Positions 1 to 7,626 of a stretch of 7,626 bases of DNA are shown here, one piece after another (positions within the stretch are counted from its first letter, which is position 1; every line of letters begins with the position of its first letter). The translations under genes and the position numbers were made by a program. Below the pieces are notes generated by a model. It was not told the origin of the DNA. It saw only the letters and a program-made list of their open reading frames with translations, and did no database searches. This stretch comes from Promethearchaeota archaeon (GTDB taxonomy: Archaea > Asgardarchaeota > Lokiarchaeia > Sigynarchaeales > SOKP01), in assembly GCA_030620005.1 (NCBI GenBank), contig JAUXAJ010000248.1, positions 1-7,626 of the forward strand, read 5' to 3'.

Positions 1-369
1 AAAGCGAAAATAGGGGAAGTATCGCACCATACTTTTGCGTATCATTGGGCGAGAATAATTGAAGGCGTTGAAGCGATCGAATTAGTCGCACAATTGCTCG
101 AAGATCCTGACATTGTCAATCCTGACTGCAAAACATTAGATATCGAGCCAAGAGAAGGTAGTGGTGTTGGCGTGACAGAAGCACCAAGAGGCTTGCTATT
201 ATACAACATCTGGTCGGATGATCAAGGTATTTGTAAAAAATTAAACCTTTTAGTTGCGACCAACCATAACATTGCTGGAATCGAAAAGTCGTTAATGCAC
301 GTGGCCAAGCAAGTGTTTGAAGATAAGGCTTTAGAAGGAATAAAATTACCAGATCCATGGATCAAATAG
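1..369 (+). CDS. vhuA: F420-non-reducing [NiFe] hydrogenase large subunit, C-terminal part (VhuA/MvhA type), 5' end outside window
   Basis: The frame is open from base 1 and ends at TAG 367-369, giving 122 visible residues of a group 3 [NiFe] hydrogenase large subunit, the H2-activating subunit of the cytoplasmic Mvh/Vhu complex. Recognisable segments are HTFAYHWARIIEG (residues 10-22 of the visible part), then GVGVTEAPRG and LLVATNHNIAGIEKSL, which match the conserved C-terminal third (G-V-G-x-x-E-A-P-R-G, then L-x-V-A-T). The N-terminal L1 CxxC lies upstream of the window. The terminal DPCxxCxxH nickel-ligand motif is absent: the protein stops at DPWIK, and the motif is encoded by the separate vhuU 51 bases downstream. 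That split is known from the selenocysteine-containing Vhu enzyme of Methanococcus. An internal ATG at 94 gives only a truncated product and is not the real start. The assignment is firm; VhuA rather than MvhA rests on the split. Confidence 0.92.
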   Translation, partial: KAKIGEVSHHTFAYHWARIIEGVEAIELVAQLLEDPDIVNPDCKTLDIEPREGSGVGVTEAPRGLLLYNIWSDDQGICKKLNLLVATNHNIAGIEKSLMHVAKQVFEDKALEGIKLPDPWIK

Positions 370-420: not shown

Positions 421-570
421 ATGAGTGATGTACCAGAAGGAGTAGTAAATATCTTGGAAATGATAGTCCGCTGTTTTGATTGCTGACTATCGTGCGCTGC
501 CCATATCACTGTTGTGAATGAGGAAGGCAAAGAGATTTACTCTCGCAAGTTGAATGTTGGTTTAGGATGA
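421..570 (+). CDS. vhuU: Selenocysteine-containing hydrogenase subunit VhuU (UGA at 484-486 read as Sec)
   Basis: This gene of 49 codons plus a TGA stop (568-570) is normally missed because of an in-frame TGA at codon 22. Read as selenocysteine (U), the core is LEMIVRCFDCULSCAAH (residues 12-28), which aligns with the end of [NiFe] large subunits (EMVVRAYDPCLSCATH-like). U22 and C25 are then the two terminal nickel ligands that VhuA lacks. Residues 29-49 after H28 resemble the C-terminal extension that the maturation endopeptidase removes; cleavage after H28 is inferred. The start ATG is preceded by GAGTGA at 407-412 with 8-base spacing. The gene lies between vhuA and hdrC, and a SECIS-like hairpin follows at once. 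Oddities: the motif reads D-C-U where the usual form is D-P-C, and the terminator is itself UGA. The alternative is a pseudogene with a premature stop, but the intact frame and motif on both sides of the UGA argue against it. Confidence 0.87.
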
Positions 571-629
571 AATATCCAATAAAAATTATAGATTGGATAT
601 GACTGCCCTTGCACGGGTTAAAACCAACA
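555..629 (+). promoter_or_regulatory. SECIS-like element for vhuU with eukaryotic-type AUGA/GA core
   Basis: This RNA element should recruit the selenocysteine insertion machinery to the UGA at 484. A perfect 9-bp basal stem pairs TGTTGGTTT (555-563) with AAACCAACA (621-629). A perfect 9-bp upper stem pairs ATATCCAAT (572-580) with ATTGGATAT (592-600). The 11-base apical loop (581-591) opens with five A. At the base of the upper stem lie ATGA (567-570) on the 5' side and GA (601-602) on the 3' side, as in the non-Watson-Crick quartet of eukaryotic SECIS elements. The same stretch also contains GAA (569-571), the archaeal hallmark. Less typical are the extra A571 and a long 3' internal strand (603-620) that could form AGG 564-566/CCT 607-609 or a small CCC/GGG hairpin (606-608/615-617). 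The basal stem lies inside the vhuU coding end and the ATGA contains its stop codon. The fold was worked out by eye, not computed. Confidence 0.75.
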
Positions 630-679: not shown

Positions 680-1186
680 TTGTCGATAGATTTTGAATTT
701 AGGAAACAAGTTATGGATAACCACATTGGATCTGAAGCCATTAAATATTGCTATCAATGTAGTAGATGCACTGATTATTGTCCTGTATCTGCTGTCACGA
801 TTGATTTTTATTCCACTGGAGGCTATAATCCAAGGGCTAATATTTTGAAAGCGCTTCTGGGTTATAAAGATGCGATTTTTTCAGCCGATCCACTGGCTAT
901 TTGGGGTTGTACCGTATGTGATACATGCGACGAGGTGTGTCCACAGAACATTGAGCTGACTGAAATCTTTAGTTTCTTGAAAAATGAGAGTACCGCACAG
1001 GGAAAAGCTCCTGACTTTATTTATGCTCAAGCTAAAGCAATCTTTGATAGCGCTAAAGCAATTCCATCTCAGACAGCCATAGAGCGAAGAAGAGAACAGC
1101 TAGGATTACCCGCTGTAGTTGCTCCGGATATTAATGAAGTTCAAACAATATTAAAAAATTTAGGTGCTGATAAAAAAATAAAATAA
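680..1186 (+). CDS. hdrC: Heterodisulfide reductase subunit C (HdrC), two [4Fe-4S] clusters
   Basis: This 168-residue ferredoxin-like subunit passes electrons between HdrA and HdrB in cytoplasmic heterodisulfide reductase. Two classic cluster motifs are visible: C24-x2-C27-x2-C30-x3-C34-P and C77-x2-C80-x2-C83-x3-C87-P. Between them lies the GGYNPRANILKALLG segment typical of HdrC. The C-terminal part (about 100-168) is helical and ends lysine-rich. The start chosen is TTG 680, with GTGAG (670-674) five bases upstream. An in-frame ATG at 668 is followed directly by TGA, and ATG 712 would cut into the conserved N-terminus. The gene is 109 bases after vhuU, a gap largely taken by the SECIS candidate, and 15 bases before hdrB, so co-transcription is likely. 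Length is close to the usual 170-200 residues. Confidence 0.92.
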   Translation: MSIDFEFRKQVMDNHIGSEAIKYCYQCSRCTDYCPVSAVTIDFYSTGGYNPRANILKALLGYKDAIFSADPLAIWGCTVCDTCDEVCPQNIELTEIFSFLKNESTAQGKAPDFIYAQAKAIFDSAKAIPSQTAIERRREQLGLPAVVAPDINEVQTILKNLGADKKIK

Positions 1187-1201: not shown

Positions 1202-2074
1202 ATGACAGAGTATAAAATGTTTGAAGGTTGTACGATTGGAAACAGGATTCCATTTATAGAAGCGGCTTCAAGGAAAGTTTTAGACAAGATTGGAGTTCAA
1301 ACTTCGCAAGCTGCCTTTTCGTGCTGTCCAGATCCCACTGGAATGAAAAGTTTTGATAATAATTCGTGGTTAGTACTCGGCGCTCGTAATTTATGTTTGG
1401 CTGAATCTGAAGGAAAAGACATTCTATCCCTATGTAATGGTTGCGCTAATACACTTAGAGGCGTGGGTCATCAATTAAAACACGATTCTTTAAAAAAGGA
1501 TAAAGTAAATGCCGAGTTAGCAAAGATTGGCAAGGAATTTAAAGGTTCAATTGATGTAAAGCACTTTGTAGATATTATTAAGGATAAACTGGACGCGGTT
1601 AAAGGGGCTATAACAAAACAACTAGACGGTTTAAAAGTTGCGTGCCATCCTGGTTGCCATTACATGCGACCGGCTGAATGGATGGAATCTGACGATCCAA
1701 TGCGACCAAAAAACTTAAAGGAAATTGTTGCTGTAACCGGTGCCACCGTTGCTGAATACGATGAATTAGCCTTATGTTGTGGTTCCGCAGTAACAAACGC
1801 GTACGAGGAACACGGGCTTGCTAATCTTAAGAAAAAAATGGATAGTATTGCAAAATCAGGAGCAGATGTGATTTGTGTAAACTGCCCAGCATGCTTCCAG
1901 CAATTTGACACGAAACAACGAGATCTTTCTAAAAAATACGAGAAAGAATATAACATACCAGTACTTTACTTAACAGAATTGTTAGCTTTGTCCATGGGTA
2001 TCAGTGCTGACGAAATTGGGTTGAAATTCCATAGAACACGATTAAAAGCAATTTTAGAAAAACACGGCTTGTAA
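1202..2074 (+). CDS. hdrB: Heterodisulfide reductase subunit B (HdrB), two CCG domains
   Basis: This 290-residue catalytic subunit of cytoplasmic heterodisulfide reductase normally carries two noncubane [4Fe-4S] clusters that cleave a CoM-S-S-CoB-type disulfide. The substrate in a non-methanogenic Asgard host is not known to me. Both cysteine-rich CCG domains are complete: C10-x30-C41-C42-x35-C78-x2-C81, and C152-x39-C192-C193-x34-C228-x2-C231. FEGCTIGNR at the N-terminus, HPGCHY and ALCCGSA are family signatures. The ATG follows TGAGGA (1189-1194) with 7-base spacing and only 15 bases separate it from hdrC. The length matches the family (about 290-300). A T-tract terminator follows. With vhuA/vhuU upstream it implies an electron-confurcating or -bifurcating hydrogenase-Hdr complex; HdrA is not in view. 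Confidence 0.95.
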   Translation: MTEYKMFEGCTIGNRIPFIEAASRKVLDKIGVQTSQAAFSCCPDPTGMKSFDNNSWLVLGARNLCLAESEGKDILSLCNGCANTLRGVGHQLKHDSLKKDKVNAELAKIGKEFKGSIDVKHFVDIIKDKLDAVKGAITKQLDGLKVACHPGCHYMRPAEWMESDDPMRPKNLKEIVAVTGATVAEYDELALCCGSAVTNAYEEHGLANLKKKMDSIAKSGADVICVNCPACFQQFDTKQRDLSKKYEKEYNIPVLYLTELLALSMGISADEIGLKFHRTRLKAILEKHGL

Positions 2075-3122: not shown

Positions 3123-3170
3123 GTAATATTTATTAAGAATTGCTTTTTAATTTCTAACGAATTAGGTACT

Positions 3171-3974
3171 TCATAAATCAAACAATTCAATTTTTAACTG
3201 CTTTAATTTTGAATAAAGACTTTTTATTGCCGCCATGCCTTTTGACTCTGGATCGTGATCTATAGGCGAAATACCAGCTAGATCTGCTTTACCGATTTCG
3301 GGATCGAATGGAATAATGTGATATAAAGGGACTTCCCATTCTTGTACTCTTTTATTCATGGTTTGAAGTTGGGAATCGTCAAAAATTTTGTTAGCTATTA
3401 AATAAATATTAATAACTCCTAATTTTTTTGATAATTGAATAATTTTAGAGCACAAATCTAAAGATTTCTGAGAAGGTTCGGTTATAACTAGCATTATGTC
3501 AATTCCTTTGGCTGTTCCTCTGCCTAAATGCTCCAATCCCGCTTCAAAATCCACGATGATAACTTCGTCTCGTTTAACAAATAAATTAAATAGTAATGTC
3601 CGAATTAACGCGTTTTCTGGACACAAACACCCCGTTAAAGGTTCTTCAATCGATCCTAAAACTAATAATTGCAAACCATCTGGTCCAGTAACTTTATACT
3701 TATCAGGGATGTCAGAAACTTTTGGATTGATGTTATACACGCCAGGACCAGCACCTTTAATAATCACTCGATCTTCAATCATTTTTTTCATTTCTGAAAT
3801 TGGCACTATTTTATCCTTAACTTCTTGACTAATACCTAAAGTATAACTCAAATTCATGGCAGAATCGTTATCAATGGCGAGAACCTTAAAGCCGTCTTTT
3901 GCAAAAAGCCTGGCTAAAGTACCTGCTATTAATGTTTTCCCTACTCCACCTTTACCAGATACAGCTATCTTTAT
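3171..3974 (-). CDS. cooC: CooC-type nickel-insertion ATPase (MinD/ParA-like), apparent AUA start codon
   Basis: This 267-residue P-loop ATPase of the CooC family uses ATP to mature the nickel centre of carbon monoxide dehydrogenase/acetyl-CoA synthase. Seen: deviant Walker A GKGGVGKT (7-14), VLAIDNDSAMNLSYTLG (31-47), the metal-binding C-x-C pair C116/C118 in GCLCPENALIR, and Walker B with VDFEAGLEHLGRGTA (about 141-155). C116/C118 match the Ni-binding Cys pair of Carboxydothermus CooC1 in spacing and context. The first ATG (3857) lies after the P-loop and cannot be the true start. Upstream there is no ATG, GTG or TTG before the in-frame stop at 3981-3983. The natural N-terminus M-K-I-A-V-S-G-K-G would be encoded from ATA at 3972-3974, behind AAGGTGA. 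So the start is AUA, or an ATG altered by mutation or sequence error. No CODH gene is in the window. Confidence 0.9.
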   Translation of the reverse strand: MKIAVSGKGGVGKTLIAGTLARLFAKDGFKVLAIDNDSAMNLSYTLGISQEVKDKIVPISEMKKMIEDRVIIKGAGPGVYNINPKVSDIPDKYKVTGPDGLQLLVLGSIEEPLTGCLCPENALIRTLLFNLFVKRDEVIIVDFEAGLEHLGRGTAKGIDIMLVITEPSQKSLDLCSKIIQLSKKLGVINIYLIANKIFDDSQLQTMNKRVQEWEVPLYHIIPFDPEIGKADLAGISPIDHDPESKGMAAIKSLYSKLKQLKIELFDL

Positions 3975-3980
3975 CTCTAT

Positions 3981-3987
3981 TCACCTT
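3981..3987 (-). promoter_or_regulatory. Ribosome binding site that decides the cooC start
   Basis: AAGGTGA on the - strand lies six bases before the ATA at 3972-3974, the ideal archaeal spacing. It supports translation starting at that ATA rather than at the internal ATG 3857, which would remove the P-loop. Confidence 0.7.
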
Positions 3988-4078
3988 AAGTTTGATAATA
4001 AAGCATAATTAAAAAAAATTTCGAAGAAGGTAGTGATCACACGGTTGAAAAGTTTTTAATACCCAACCTCTTTTTTTC

Positions 4079-4544: not shown

Positions 4545-5423
4545 ATGGTTAAAGGATGGTCTATCTTAGAAGTATTAGTTGTTTATGTTTTGGGATTCAT
4601 AATTGGTCGTTTTTTAATGTCTTTTTTTGCCGATTTCATGGAAATGGAGAGGCTCTTGCTTGGATTTAATTACATCTTTCCTATTTTGTTTTACTTTTTT
4701 CCCGTTTTAATAATACTTGGAGCAAAAAGAAGCTTCAAGTCTTACGGATACACCAAAGAAAAAGGTGAATTTAATGTGGATGTTGGAATGTCTCTTTTTT
4801 TATATGCCACCATTCCATTCCTTTTCGGATTCATGGTGATATCTTTCCTTGGTTTCGGGCTATTTGATCCATTAGGCGCCATAATAATTACGGGATTTAC
4901 GATCGTCGCCTTGATTTTCGTCTTAAAGGCATTAAAAAAAAGAAGTATAGACGAGGAGATTGAAAAAAGTAAGACGAGGGCTAATTTTATATTGATGATT
5001 ATACTACTACTTGTTCCCTTGCTTCTTGGTCTTGTTTTTAATAGCTTTTCAATGAATCTTATCTCATTAGTGCTGTGGCAGTTTTTCATATCGGGATTTG
5101 GGGAAGAATTCAAGTACCGGGGGTACTACCAATCCACGATTAACAACGAGTTCGGTCGACCTTATTCGCTCGCGGGAATCGAATTTGGTCCAGGCTTGAT
5201 CATCGCATCGATATTGTTTGCCGTATCACACGCTTTAAATCCATTTAATCCTTTTACTGGAAGTTATCAAATCGAAATTTGGTGGGGCACTTTTACATTC
5301 ATAACGGGATTTACATTTGGGTTGATTCGGGAAAAAACAGAAAGCATCGTTGCTGCAGGGATTTATCACGGGCTCCCTGATGCAGTAGGGGAGGGGATAG
5401 CATTTGTCTTTGGATGGTTGTAA
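4545..5423 (+). CDS. CPBP-family (CAAX protease/bacteriocin-processing, Abi-type) intramembrane metalloprotease
   Basis: This 292-residue protein has about seven to eight membrane segments, among them 7-28, 43-60, 83-104, 109-130, 147-166 and 170-184. The catalytic part at the C-terminal end has all the family motifs. Motif 1 is E187-E188-x3-R192 (GEEFKYRG). Motif 2 is F225-x3-H229 (FAVSH). Motif 3 is H275 in YHGLPD, with D279 four residues on. Glu and His residues of this kind form the metalloprotease site in Rce1-like enzymes, so it should be active; its substrate is unknown. A basic cytoplasmic loop (KKRSIDEEIEKSKTR, 131-145) separates the N- and C-terminal halves. The start ATG has GTGAT upstream and a TATA box at 4488. 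The second half of the gene is richer in G+C than its surroundings. The gene stands alone and ends facing a truncated toxin gene. Confidence 0.9.
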   Translation: MVKGWSILEVLVVYVLGFIIGRFLMSFFADFMEMERLLLGFNYIFPILFYFFPVLIILGAKRSFKSYGYTKEKGEFNVDVGMSLFLYATIPFLFGFMVISFLGFGLFDPLGAIIITGFTIVALIFVLKALKKRSIDEEIEKSKTRANFILMIILLLVPLLLGLVFNSFSMNLISLVLWQFFISGFGEEFKYRGYYQSTINNEFGRPYSLAGIEFGPGLIIASILFAVSHALNPFNPFTGSYQIEIWWGTFTFITGFTFGLIREKTESIVAAGIYHGLPDAVGEGIAFVFGWL

Positions 5424-7031: not shown

Positions 7032-7626
7032 GTGTGCCCTGAGTGCATCAAGCCGTATTTACATGGTACTAATTTCTCAAGTCTAGAAGAAATTCGTAAT
7101 TATCAGAAAGAACACGCTAAAAAATTAAAATTAGTAAATTCTAAATCAAATTATAATTTATTAGGATTTGTTAAAATAAAATTTAGGAATGATTTGGCTT
7201 ATTCTGGGATCATAATTCAAGATCTATGCGAAAACAAAATAATAGAAACTAACTTTAAATCGTTTGAGCCAATTTTTGTTAAATATTTCCCTTCAGTCCT
7301 GTTTTTAAACCGAACTGATATATATTTAGATTTAATTAAGGATTTAGAAGTGGTTCCCGATTGTTATATTCTAAACTCTGGCGGTCAAATTCATCCCTTC
7401 TTACATGGATGTGCCTGTGATGTAGGATTAAAGTTAGATGTTCCCGTTATTGGATATACTAAAAAATTATTATTTGGCAAGCTAAAAAAAAAAAAAGGAG
7501 GATTCAGAAGTTTTTGGAGTTTATCACGAAGAGAAATTAATTGGCCATGCTATTCCAAAACCTAATTCTAAAAAATTTCTATATGTTTCTGTTGGAAATA
7601 ATTTGTCTCTTCAAACAACATGCGAG
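7032..7626 (+). pseudogene. Endonuclease V (Nfi) homologue, catalytic residues replaced and frame broken at A13
   Basis: The fold signature of endonuclease V is clear. SLEEIRNYQKEHAKKL (17-32) matches the N-terminal PEEAI..Q helix. Further matches are DLAYSGIIIQDL (54-65), FVKYFPSVLFLNR (82-94), PDCYILNSGGQIHP (109-122), LKLDVPVIGYTKKLL (133-147) and, after a frame change, GHAIPKPNSKKFLYVSVGNN. Aligned by eye with Thermotoga EndoV, the metal-binding D43, E89 and D110 become K48, R94 and N115, and H214 becomes N. The enzyme should not cleave deaminated DNA. The first frame ends at TAA 7563-7565; the homology moves to the +1 frame at the A run 7484-7496 and stays open to the window edge. The start is uncertain: GTG 7032 has no ribosome binding site. 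The 219 bases upstream hold no supported gene. It may be a decaying pseudogene or a non-catalytic paralogue with slippage. Confidence 0.8.
7484..7496 (+). repeat. Run of 13 A at the endonuclease V frame break
   Basis: Thirteen consecutive A lie where the endonuclease V homology switches frame. With 12 A (or 15) the two halves join into one reading frame. The run could be a mutational or sequencing indel, or a site of polymerase slippage that restores the frame in part of the transcripts. Confidence 0.85.

Follow-up and report, generated by a model that had tools for sequence, protein, structure and literature searches.

Introduction

How did eukaryotes come to depend on SBP2, a protein of the L7Ae family, for selenocysteine (Sec) insertion, when archaea lack it? 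This question bears on a SECIS element that straddles the end of a vhuU gene of Lokiarchaeia, in a stretch of 7,626 nt (the window, to which all positions refer). According to the accessible text of Huang et al. (2024; PMC11227280), 85.1% of 1439 Asgard selenoprotein genes carry eukaryotic-type SECIS elements and SBP2 is absent in Asgard; the first description of such eSECIS-like elements is credited there to Mariotti et al. (2016). The same text describes the type I element of frhA/vhuU as having an AUGA_GA or AUGA_AA core and an A-rich loop, and states that in Lokiarchaeia the UGA stop often overlaps AUGA, while a review, in the part accessible, gives the Lokiarchaeota SECIS one apical loop (PMC9499178). 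As the eukaryotic-type core is thus already reported for Lokiarchaeia, the core described here is a further example and not the first. Should the Asgard element prove to be a junction of three helices, the step from archaeal to eukaryotic decoding would become concrete and testable.

Results

The vhuU locus

The gene order in the window is vhuA, vhuU, hdrC, hdrB (Table 1). The vhuA fragment matches its NCBIfam family with E 9.7e-25 and 87 bits (the cut-off of 800 is set for the whole protein), and the best NCBIfam match of VhuU is the VhuU selenoprotein family, with E 2.1e-13 and 49.8 bits, under the cut-off of 70. Farther along, the window holds a HypC hydrogenase chaperone over cut-off (2228-2476), weaker matches under cut-off to a MinD-type ATPase (3162-4040, minus strand) and a CPBP-type membrane protease (4545-5423), and an open frame at 7032-7626 with a motif reminiscent of endonuclease V; an apparent frame change in this last frame, at a poly-A run near 7486-7496, may be an assembly error or real.

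Table 1. Features of the vhuU region and parts of the SECIS element (window positions).
Feature	Position	Strand	Basis or remark
vhuA 3' end (NiFe hydrogenase large subunit, C-terminal part)	1..369	+	NCBIfam NF041785 VhuA
vhuU, MSDVPEGVVNILEMIVRCFDCULSCAAHITVVNEEGKEIYSRKLNVGLG*	421..570	+	49 residues; NCBIfam NF041786
In-frame UGA, probably decoded as Sec; DCU-LSC motif	484..486	+	TGA in 59/59 vhuU copies
Whole SECIS of vhuU, straddling the gene end	555..629	+	fold, covariation
Lower stem (C helix), 5' strand, TGTTGGTTT	555..563	+	pairs with 621-629
AUGA core; UGA 568-570 doubles as vhuU stop	567..570	+	sequence
Unpaired extra A	571..571	+	in 13/45 vhuU rows, never without 3' GA
Upper stem (NC helix), 5' strand	572..580	+	covarying pairs with 592-600
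Apical loop AAAAATTATAG, 11 nt, A-rich	581..591	+	little or no variation at A581-A585
Upper stem (NC helix), 3' strand	592..600	+	fold, covariation
GA, 3' half of tandem G.A core	601..602	+	AA in 25/45 rows, GG in 1/45
Third helix (T helix), 5' strand GCCC	605..608	+	pairs with GGGU 615-618
T-helix loop UUGCAC, conserved GC	609..614	+	loop GC in 43/45 vhuU rows and 53/56 other unique elements
Third helix (T helix), 3' strand GGGU	615..618	+	fold; helix covariation in 71 distinct elements from several genes
Lower stem (C helix), 3' strand, AAACCAACA	621..629	+	fold, covariation
hdrC-like 4Fe-4S protein, gene after vhuU (listed start TTG)	680..1186	+	Pfam Fer4_8 E 2.5e-10
hdrB (CCG domain)	1202..2074	+	Pfam PF02754 E 6.7e-27

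Fold and layout of the element

The original prediction had proposed a SECIS with a eukaryotic-type AUGA...GA core in an archaeon, in which ATGA and GA lie between two perfect 9-bp stems and an A-rich apical loop begins 10 bases after ATGA. This is borne out: the coordinates are correct as given, both stems are in the minimum free energy (MFE) fold, and both are conserved and covary in relatives. The MFE fold of 545-640 contains the two stems and a hairpin at 605-618 at -21.7 kcal/mol (z -2.4); among 200 shuffles, 3 reach this stability. We scored the plan as a 9-bp outer stem, A/G/TTGA, a 9-bp inner stem, a loop of 8-20 nt and GA/AA; it is present in the window, and 20,000 dinucleotide shuffles of 401-680 did not produce it once. 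When the window was searched with a covariance model made from the vhuU rows, no second place matched at E 1 or better. Rfam families do not match the element up to E 1 or any of 14 Asgard SECIS loci; two weak matches lie elsewhere in the window.

Under the type I definition the upper stem has 7-15 bp with at most 2 mismatches and the apical loop 8-20 nt; here the core reads [A]UGA...[G/A]A, the upper stem has 9 bp and 0 mismatches, the loop has 11 nt, and the element lies 3' of a selenoprotein gene, overlapping the 3' end of vhuU with its in-frame TGA. The Val-Gly-Leu codons of vhuU (556-564) overlap the 5' strand of the lower stem, and the vhuU stop lies within AUGA. We regard the vhuU element as a confirmed SECIS in an Asgard (Lokiarchaeia) lineage.

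Conservation and covariation among vhuU relatives

A homology search with vhuA gave 75 related loci, which with the window make 76 sources. In 59 of these (window included) vhuU directly follows vhuA, and all 59 have the Sec TGA. The covariance model R1, built from the vhuU element and containing the third hairpin, located vhuU and its SECIS 1.15-1.7 kb downstream in 11 more loci, with U in the vhuU peptide in 11/11. In these displaced copies (L008, L010, L011, L015, L027, L033, L049, L059, L066, L070, L072) vhuU lies behind hdr genes, and the vhuA/vhuU gene order varies between copies. One vhuU copy (L013, 5366 onward) has TAA 12 codons after the Sec TGA, which may be decay or an assembly error; its downstream SECIS core is identical to that of L003.

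For the first vhuU alignment (A1) we removed 6 elements that were duplicates and set aside 9 vhuU loci as divergent; L064 was restored for the second (A2), which has 45 distinct rows. In A2, both-sided change is found at 10 of 22 pairs (shuffled mean 4.5) and in 41 cells (shuffled mean 13), each reached in 0/500 shuffles, and sliding the partner strand abolishes the signal. Silent third-base changes in the Val codon (GTT/GTA/GTG) and the Gly codon (GGT/GGC) are matched by changes of their 3' UTR partners: all 6 departures at the Val third base keep pairing, and the 43 rows with letters at the Gly third base have GC or TA in 39, a wobble in 2 and no pair in 2. Two copies (L022, L034) keep AUGA despite a TAG just upstream that ends the frame, which argues that AUGA is an RNA motif and more than a stop. 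Of the 9 divergent vhuU elements, R1 detects only 2 at E 1, and at E 0.1 it matches nothing in 9 of the 19 genomes.

We rejected UGA 568-570 as a second Sec codon: the peptide beyond it is variable, L022 and L034 end at the TAG just upstream, and L054, L056, L057 and L061 have TAA or TAG at the corresponding place.

A third hairpin across genes and classes

The suspicion that the 3' internal strand (603-620) might form a third helix proved right: the strand holds G-CCC-UUGCAC-GGG-U, and the hairpin at 605-618 is real, conserved and covarying in relatives. Its pairs are nearly invariant, without covariation, in lokiarchaeal vhuU; vhuU alone therefore cannot prove the helix, and its covariation comes from other genes. 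An R1 search over 80 genomes of the class gave a match in 65, and we examined 68 elements (56 weaker R1 places and 12 earlier ones). The upstream gene is hdrA and/or frhD in 32, prx-like in 10, selD in 1 and vhuU in 1; 23 of the remainder follow other open reading frames with in-frame TGA, and one (L085) has no gene.

In an alignment fitted to the model, with 71 distinct rows from several genes (6 of them vhuU rows added on purpose), all pairs together have 469 both-sided cells against 148 when shuffled. The third helix alone has 38 against 10.5 (0/500), with both-sided change at all four pairs, a covariation that is measured partly on this alignment fitted to R1. The number of pairs with both-sided change is unremarkable, both for the third helix (4 against 3.1 shuffled, reached in 122/500) and for the whole element over the 71 rows (reached in 112/500). 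A MAFFT alignment of mixed elements (A3) misplaced the third helix and was kept out of the counts.

In the raw sequence after the core, read without the covariance model, a hairpin over threshold is found in 56/56 unique elements and a loop GC in 53/56; the hairpin threshold is passed by 35% of element shuffles and 20% of random 26-mers, and hairpin and loop GC occur together in 2.8% of random 26-mers. Four loci with no or poor parse (L085, L145, L158, L174) were left out of these and the linker counts. The third helix stands 2 nt from the lower stem here, 0 nt in 26/47 other elements and 0-2 nt in 41/47, under a scoring that favours short linkers, and the linker before it varies from 0 to 4 nt. 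Our script gave no lower stem in 9/56 unique elements, 7 of them in the short membrane-protein family described below.

Since R1 contains the hairpin, a separate test dispensed with any SECIS search and used selD genes found by protein, namely the best 30 loci per class, without random draw, for Lokiarchaeia and the class of a Thorarchaeota genome. A GC-loop hairpin follows GA/AA in 24/29 lokiarchaeal selD genes (11% of shuffles), the other 5 having a GUG or UGUGU loop, and in 29/30 thorarchaeal ones (29% of shuffles); L196, too short, is not in the hairpin count, and the alignment (A8) is without L176, L187, L196, L200 and L205. Thorarchaeal selD has 9 both-sided cells in the third helix against 2.4 shuffled and 11 in the lower stem against 1.9; in lokiarchaeal selD the two helices together have 28 against 7.9. 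Further pair types are unremarkable (reached in 80/500 shuffles for Loki and 267/500 for the Thor lower stem). The third helix is 0 nt from the lower stem in the counted selD layouts. By eye, and uncounted, vhuU regions of Hel-, Frey-, Borr-, Thor- and Prometheoarchaeum-type have such hairpins as well, the exception being L054, in which AUGA and the GC loop are both absent. As judged by sequence comparison, the SECIS elements of vhuU, hdrA/frhD, selD and prx in Lokiarchaeia, and those of selD in Thorarchaeota, conserve a third hairpin in their 3' internal strand.

Candidate selenoprotein genes beside SECIS matches

Several SECIS matches lie downstream of candidate selenoprotein genes. One candidate Asgard family consists of short one-helix membrane proteins, each upstream of a SECIS match (L093, L132, L135, L144, L146, L147, L149, L150, L154, L155, L157, L168, L169), with a GGGU motif (or close variant), a Cys 2-4 residues on and then a variable tail. 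Among the database relatives of L155, 11/14 are 47 aa long, the length expected if cut at UGA. We read seven of these relatives: GGG is the C-terminus of six, and the seventh (P0002) carries W at the position of the UGA. Two members tested gave no Pfam match above cut-off, and the family is outside the seven families listed in the accessible text of PMC11227280.

A zinc-ribbon-like peptide of 37-39 aa (L141, L142, L158, L167, L174) ends in FK-TGA-TAA in 5/5 and is followed by a SECIS match at a distance of about 27-40 nt (approximate for L158 and L174, in which the SECIS parse failed or was poor); a C-terminal selenocysteine is possible in these peptides. Two frames (L153:1189-1482 and L163:1180-1464) belong with the CC/Se motif (seleno)protein family NF041239, have U and are followed by a SECIS match; L163 scores E 8.8e-12, over the cut-off, and L153 E 7.1e-8, under it. 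Weaker SECIS matches follow membrane-protein frames with in-frame TGA (GIAUDSF; FVAUG) in L097, L164 and L095.

Discussion

From the comparative evidence we consider it probable that vhuU has its cis-acting SECIS in this element, built as a three-way junction, and that Sec is inserted at UGA 484-486. Comparison of sequences demonstrates the predicted three-helix secondary structure, the core, the GC of the third loop, the position and the association with UGA-containing genes. In the mechanism that we propose, the SECIS at the end of the vhuU message would make the ribosome insert Sec at 484-486, where it would be the Sec ligand of the Vhu [NiFeSe] hydrogenase. The RNA would fold into a lower stem, an upper stem and a third hairpin opposite AUGA; the sheared G.A pairs of AUGA/GA and the helix on the non-bulged strand would make a k-junction, in which the third helix stacks on the lower stem. 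SBP2 would presumably play no part in recognition, which would fall to EFSec together with Sec-tRNA or else to a factor specific to Asgard archaea. UGA 568-570 is presumably a real stop, as a ribosome that reaches it would already have unwound the SECIS and would terminate.

SepSecS was found in 13/13 Asgard genomes tested, and both EFSec proteins tested are over the selB cut-off; from these relatives we infer the Sec machinery of the window's own genome. Several observations weigh against the main reading: tRNA-Sec reaches the Rfam cut-off in only 5/13 genomes, a lokiarchaeal SECIS was reported not to function in M. maripaludis (PMC11881835), the vhuU copy L013 has its internal TAA, L054 lacks AUGA and the GC loop by eye, some elements gave no lower stem, and R1 misses most of the divergent vhuU elements. 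The family NF045535, 'putative selenocysteine system protein', is encoded near SepSecS (L250-L257), and a related domain stands at the end of 790-aa lokiarchaeal proteins (L288, L289); none was found in a Borrarchaeum genome (G017).

The published models, in the accessible text of PMC11227280, have an upper stem, an internal loop and a lower stem only, and the near-invariance of the hairpin pairs in lokiarchaeal vhuU, without covariation, would agree with an ordinary two-stem type I element whose loose 3' internal strand forms a hairpin by accident. However, nearly every element examined has the hairpin, whichever of the several genes and of the two classes it comes from; compensatory changes occur in the hairpin, its loop keeps GC, and it is also found in selD genes picked by protein, so that this already disfavoured reading is unlikely and we favor the three-way junction.

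Hairpins can act in mRNA end formation or in translation, and those described here lie between vhuU and hdrC, where they might serve the end of the vhuU message or hdrC translation and not Sec insertion. Yet the element recurs in different surroundings, behind other genes that have an in-frame UGA (hdrA/frhD, selD, prx), it moves with vhuU where vhuU lies elsewhere, and a U-run is absent after it; we give this explanation very little credence. Even less probable is that the element is a GAA_A SECIS of the euryarchaeal type or that it can be read in both ways, the latter being what the original prediction drew from the GAA at 569-571. This part of the prediction did not hold, since GAA owes to an extra A that is missing in 32/45 vhuU rows, 25 of these having AA, and that is accompanied by 3' GA in all 13 carriers. 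Moreover, the strand opposite GAA has about 18-20 nt and a hairpin, where the euryarchaeal loop needs a single A, and the upper stem has two C-G pairs where three consecutive C/G pairs are needed. In the accessible parts of the literature, euryarchaeal-type structures are given for 3.4% of Asgard genes and doubted by the authors themselves (PMC11227280), and a lokiarchaeal SECIS was without function in M. maripaludis (PMC11881835).

The topology of the SECIS with three helices fits a k-junction, that is, a kink-turn whose non-bulged strand bears an additional helix, the T helix, which is stacked on the C helix (PMC10573300 and PMC4005666, accessible texts). AUGA belongs to the bulged strand; the non-bulged one carries GA and also the hairpin, which covaries in relatives. 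By sequence, G569.A602 and A570.G601 are compatible with tandem sheared pairs, with an extra A at 571, and the short linkers are compatible with a predicted coaxial arrangement of T and C helices; we infer the three-dimensional k-junction fold and its coaxial stacking from this model. The main reservations are the A.A second pair in 25/45 vhuU rows (GG in one) and the variable linkers. According to the accessible text of Li et al. (PMC10573300), A. fulgidus L7Ae failed to fold two k-junctions, and the T helix was suggested as the block. This fits the reported absence of SBP2 in Asgard, with which it is consistent without being proof of a k-junction.

Tentatively, and with more doubt than confidence, we suggest a wider reading: that Asgard SECIS elements are k-junctions whose third helix bars L7Ae-family proteins; that Sec is inserted through EFSec and an Asgard-specific reader, with NF045535 as candidate, touching the GC third loop; that eukaryotic SECIS elements arose when the third helix was lost and the kink-turn became accessible to a protein of the L7Ae family, which was the origin of SBP2-dependence; and that the same model also uncovers selenoprotein genes outside the published Asgard list. 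The third hairpin may alter how the SECIS is recognised. If the Asgard element is indeed a junction of three helices, it may be necessary to revise both the SECIS models in print for Asgard archaea and the description with one loop, and selenoprotein genes of Asgard genomes can be found with a covariance model that includes the third helix.

Relative to the published Asgard models within reach, the third hairpin may be new. In the searchable literature, to which Mariotti et al. (2016) and supplements do not belong, we found no mention of a third helix, extra hairpin or stem-loop for Lokiarchaeota SECIS. In the same literature k-junction and SECIS co-occur only in PMC11227280, as a reference title, and the results for three-way junction together with SECIS include no Asgard paper by title. 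The accessible texts of PMC4005666 and PMC10573300 do not mention SECIS.

Compared with known systems, the element shares with euryarchaeal SECIS (Methanococcales, Methanopyrus) the 3' UTR position and a kink-turn-like core, but lacks their GAA_A asymmetric loop and GC clamp. With eukaryotic SECIS it shares the AUGA_GA quartet, a similar stem length, unpaired As in the apical loop and the 3' position; it differs in its third helix, which the accessible text of PMC11227280 does not mention for the eukaryotic form of two stems and an internal loop, and the Rfam covariance models do not match it up to E 1. The closest description is that of the Asgard type I eSECIS-like elements, with the same AUGA_GA core, upper stem of 7-15 bp, A-rich apical loop, UGG/CCA in the frhA/vhuU lower stem and stop UGA overlapping AUGA, whereas the second hairpin conserved here is absent from the model in the accessible text of PMC11227280. 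Finally, the k-junctions of TPP riboswitches and DUF-3268, as far as described in the accessible texts of PMC4005666 and PMC10573300, share with our element a third helix on the non-bulged strand beside the C helix and resemble it, at the level of sequence, in the tandem G.A pairs next to a 5' loop; they differ from it in linker lengths and in function, which here would be recoding and not ligand binding.
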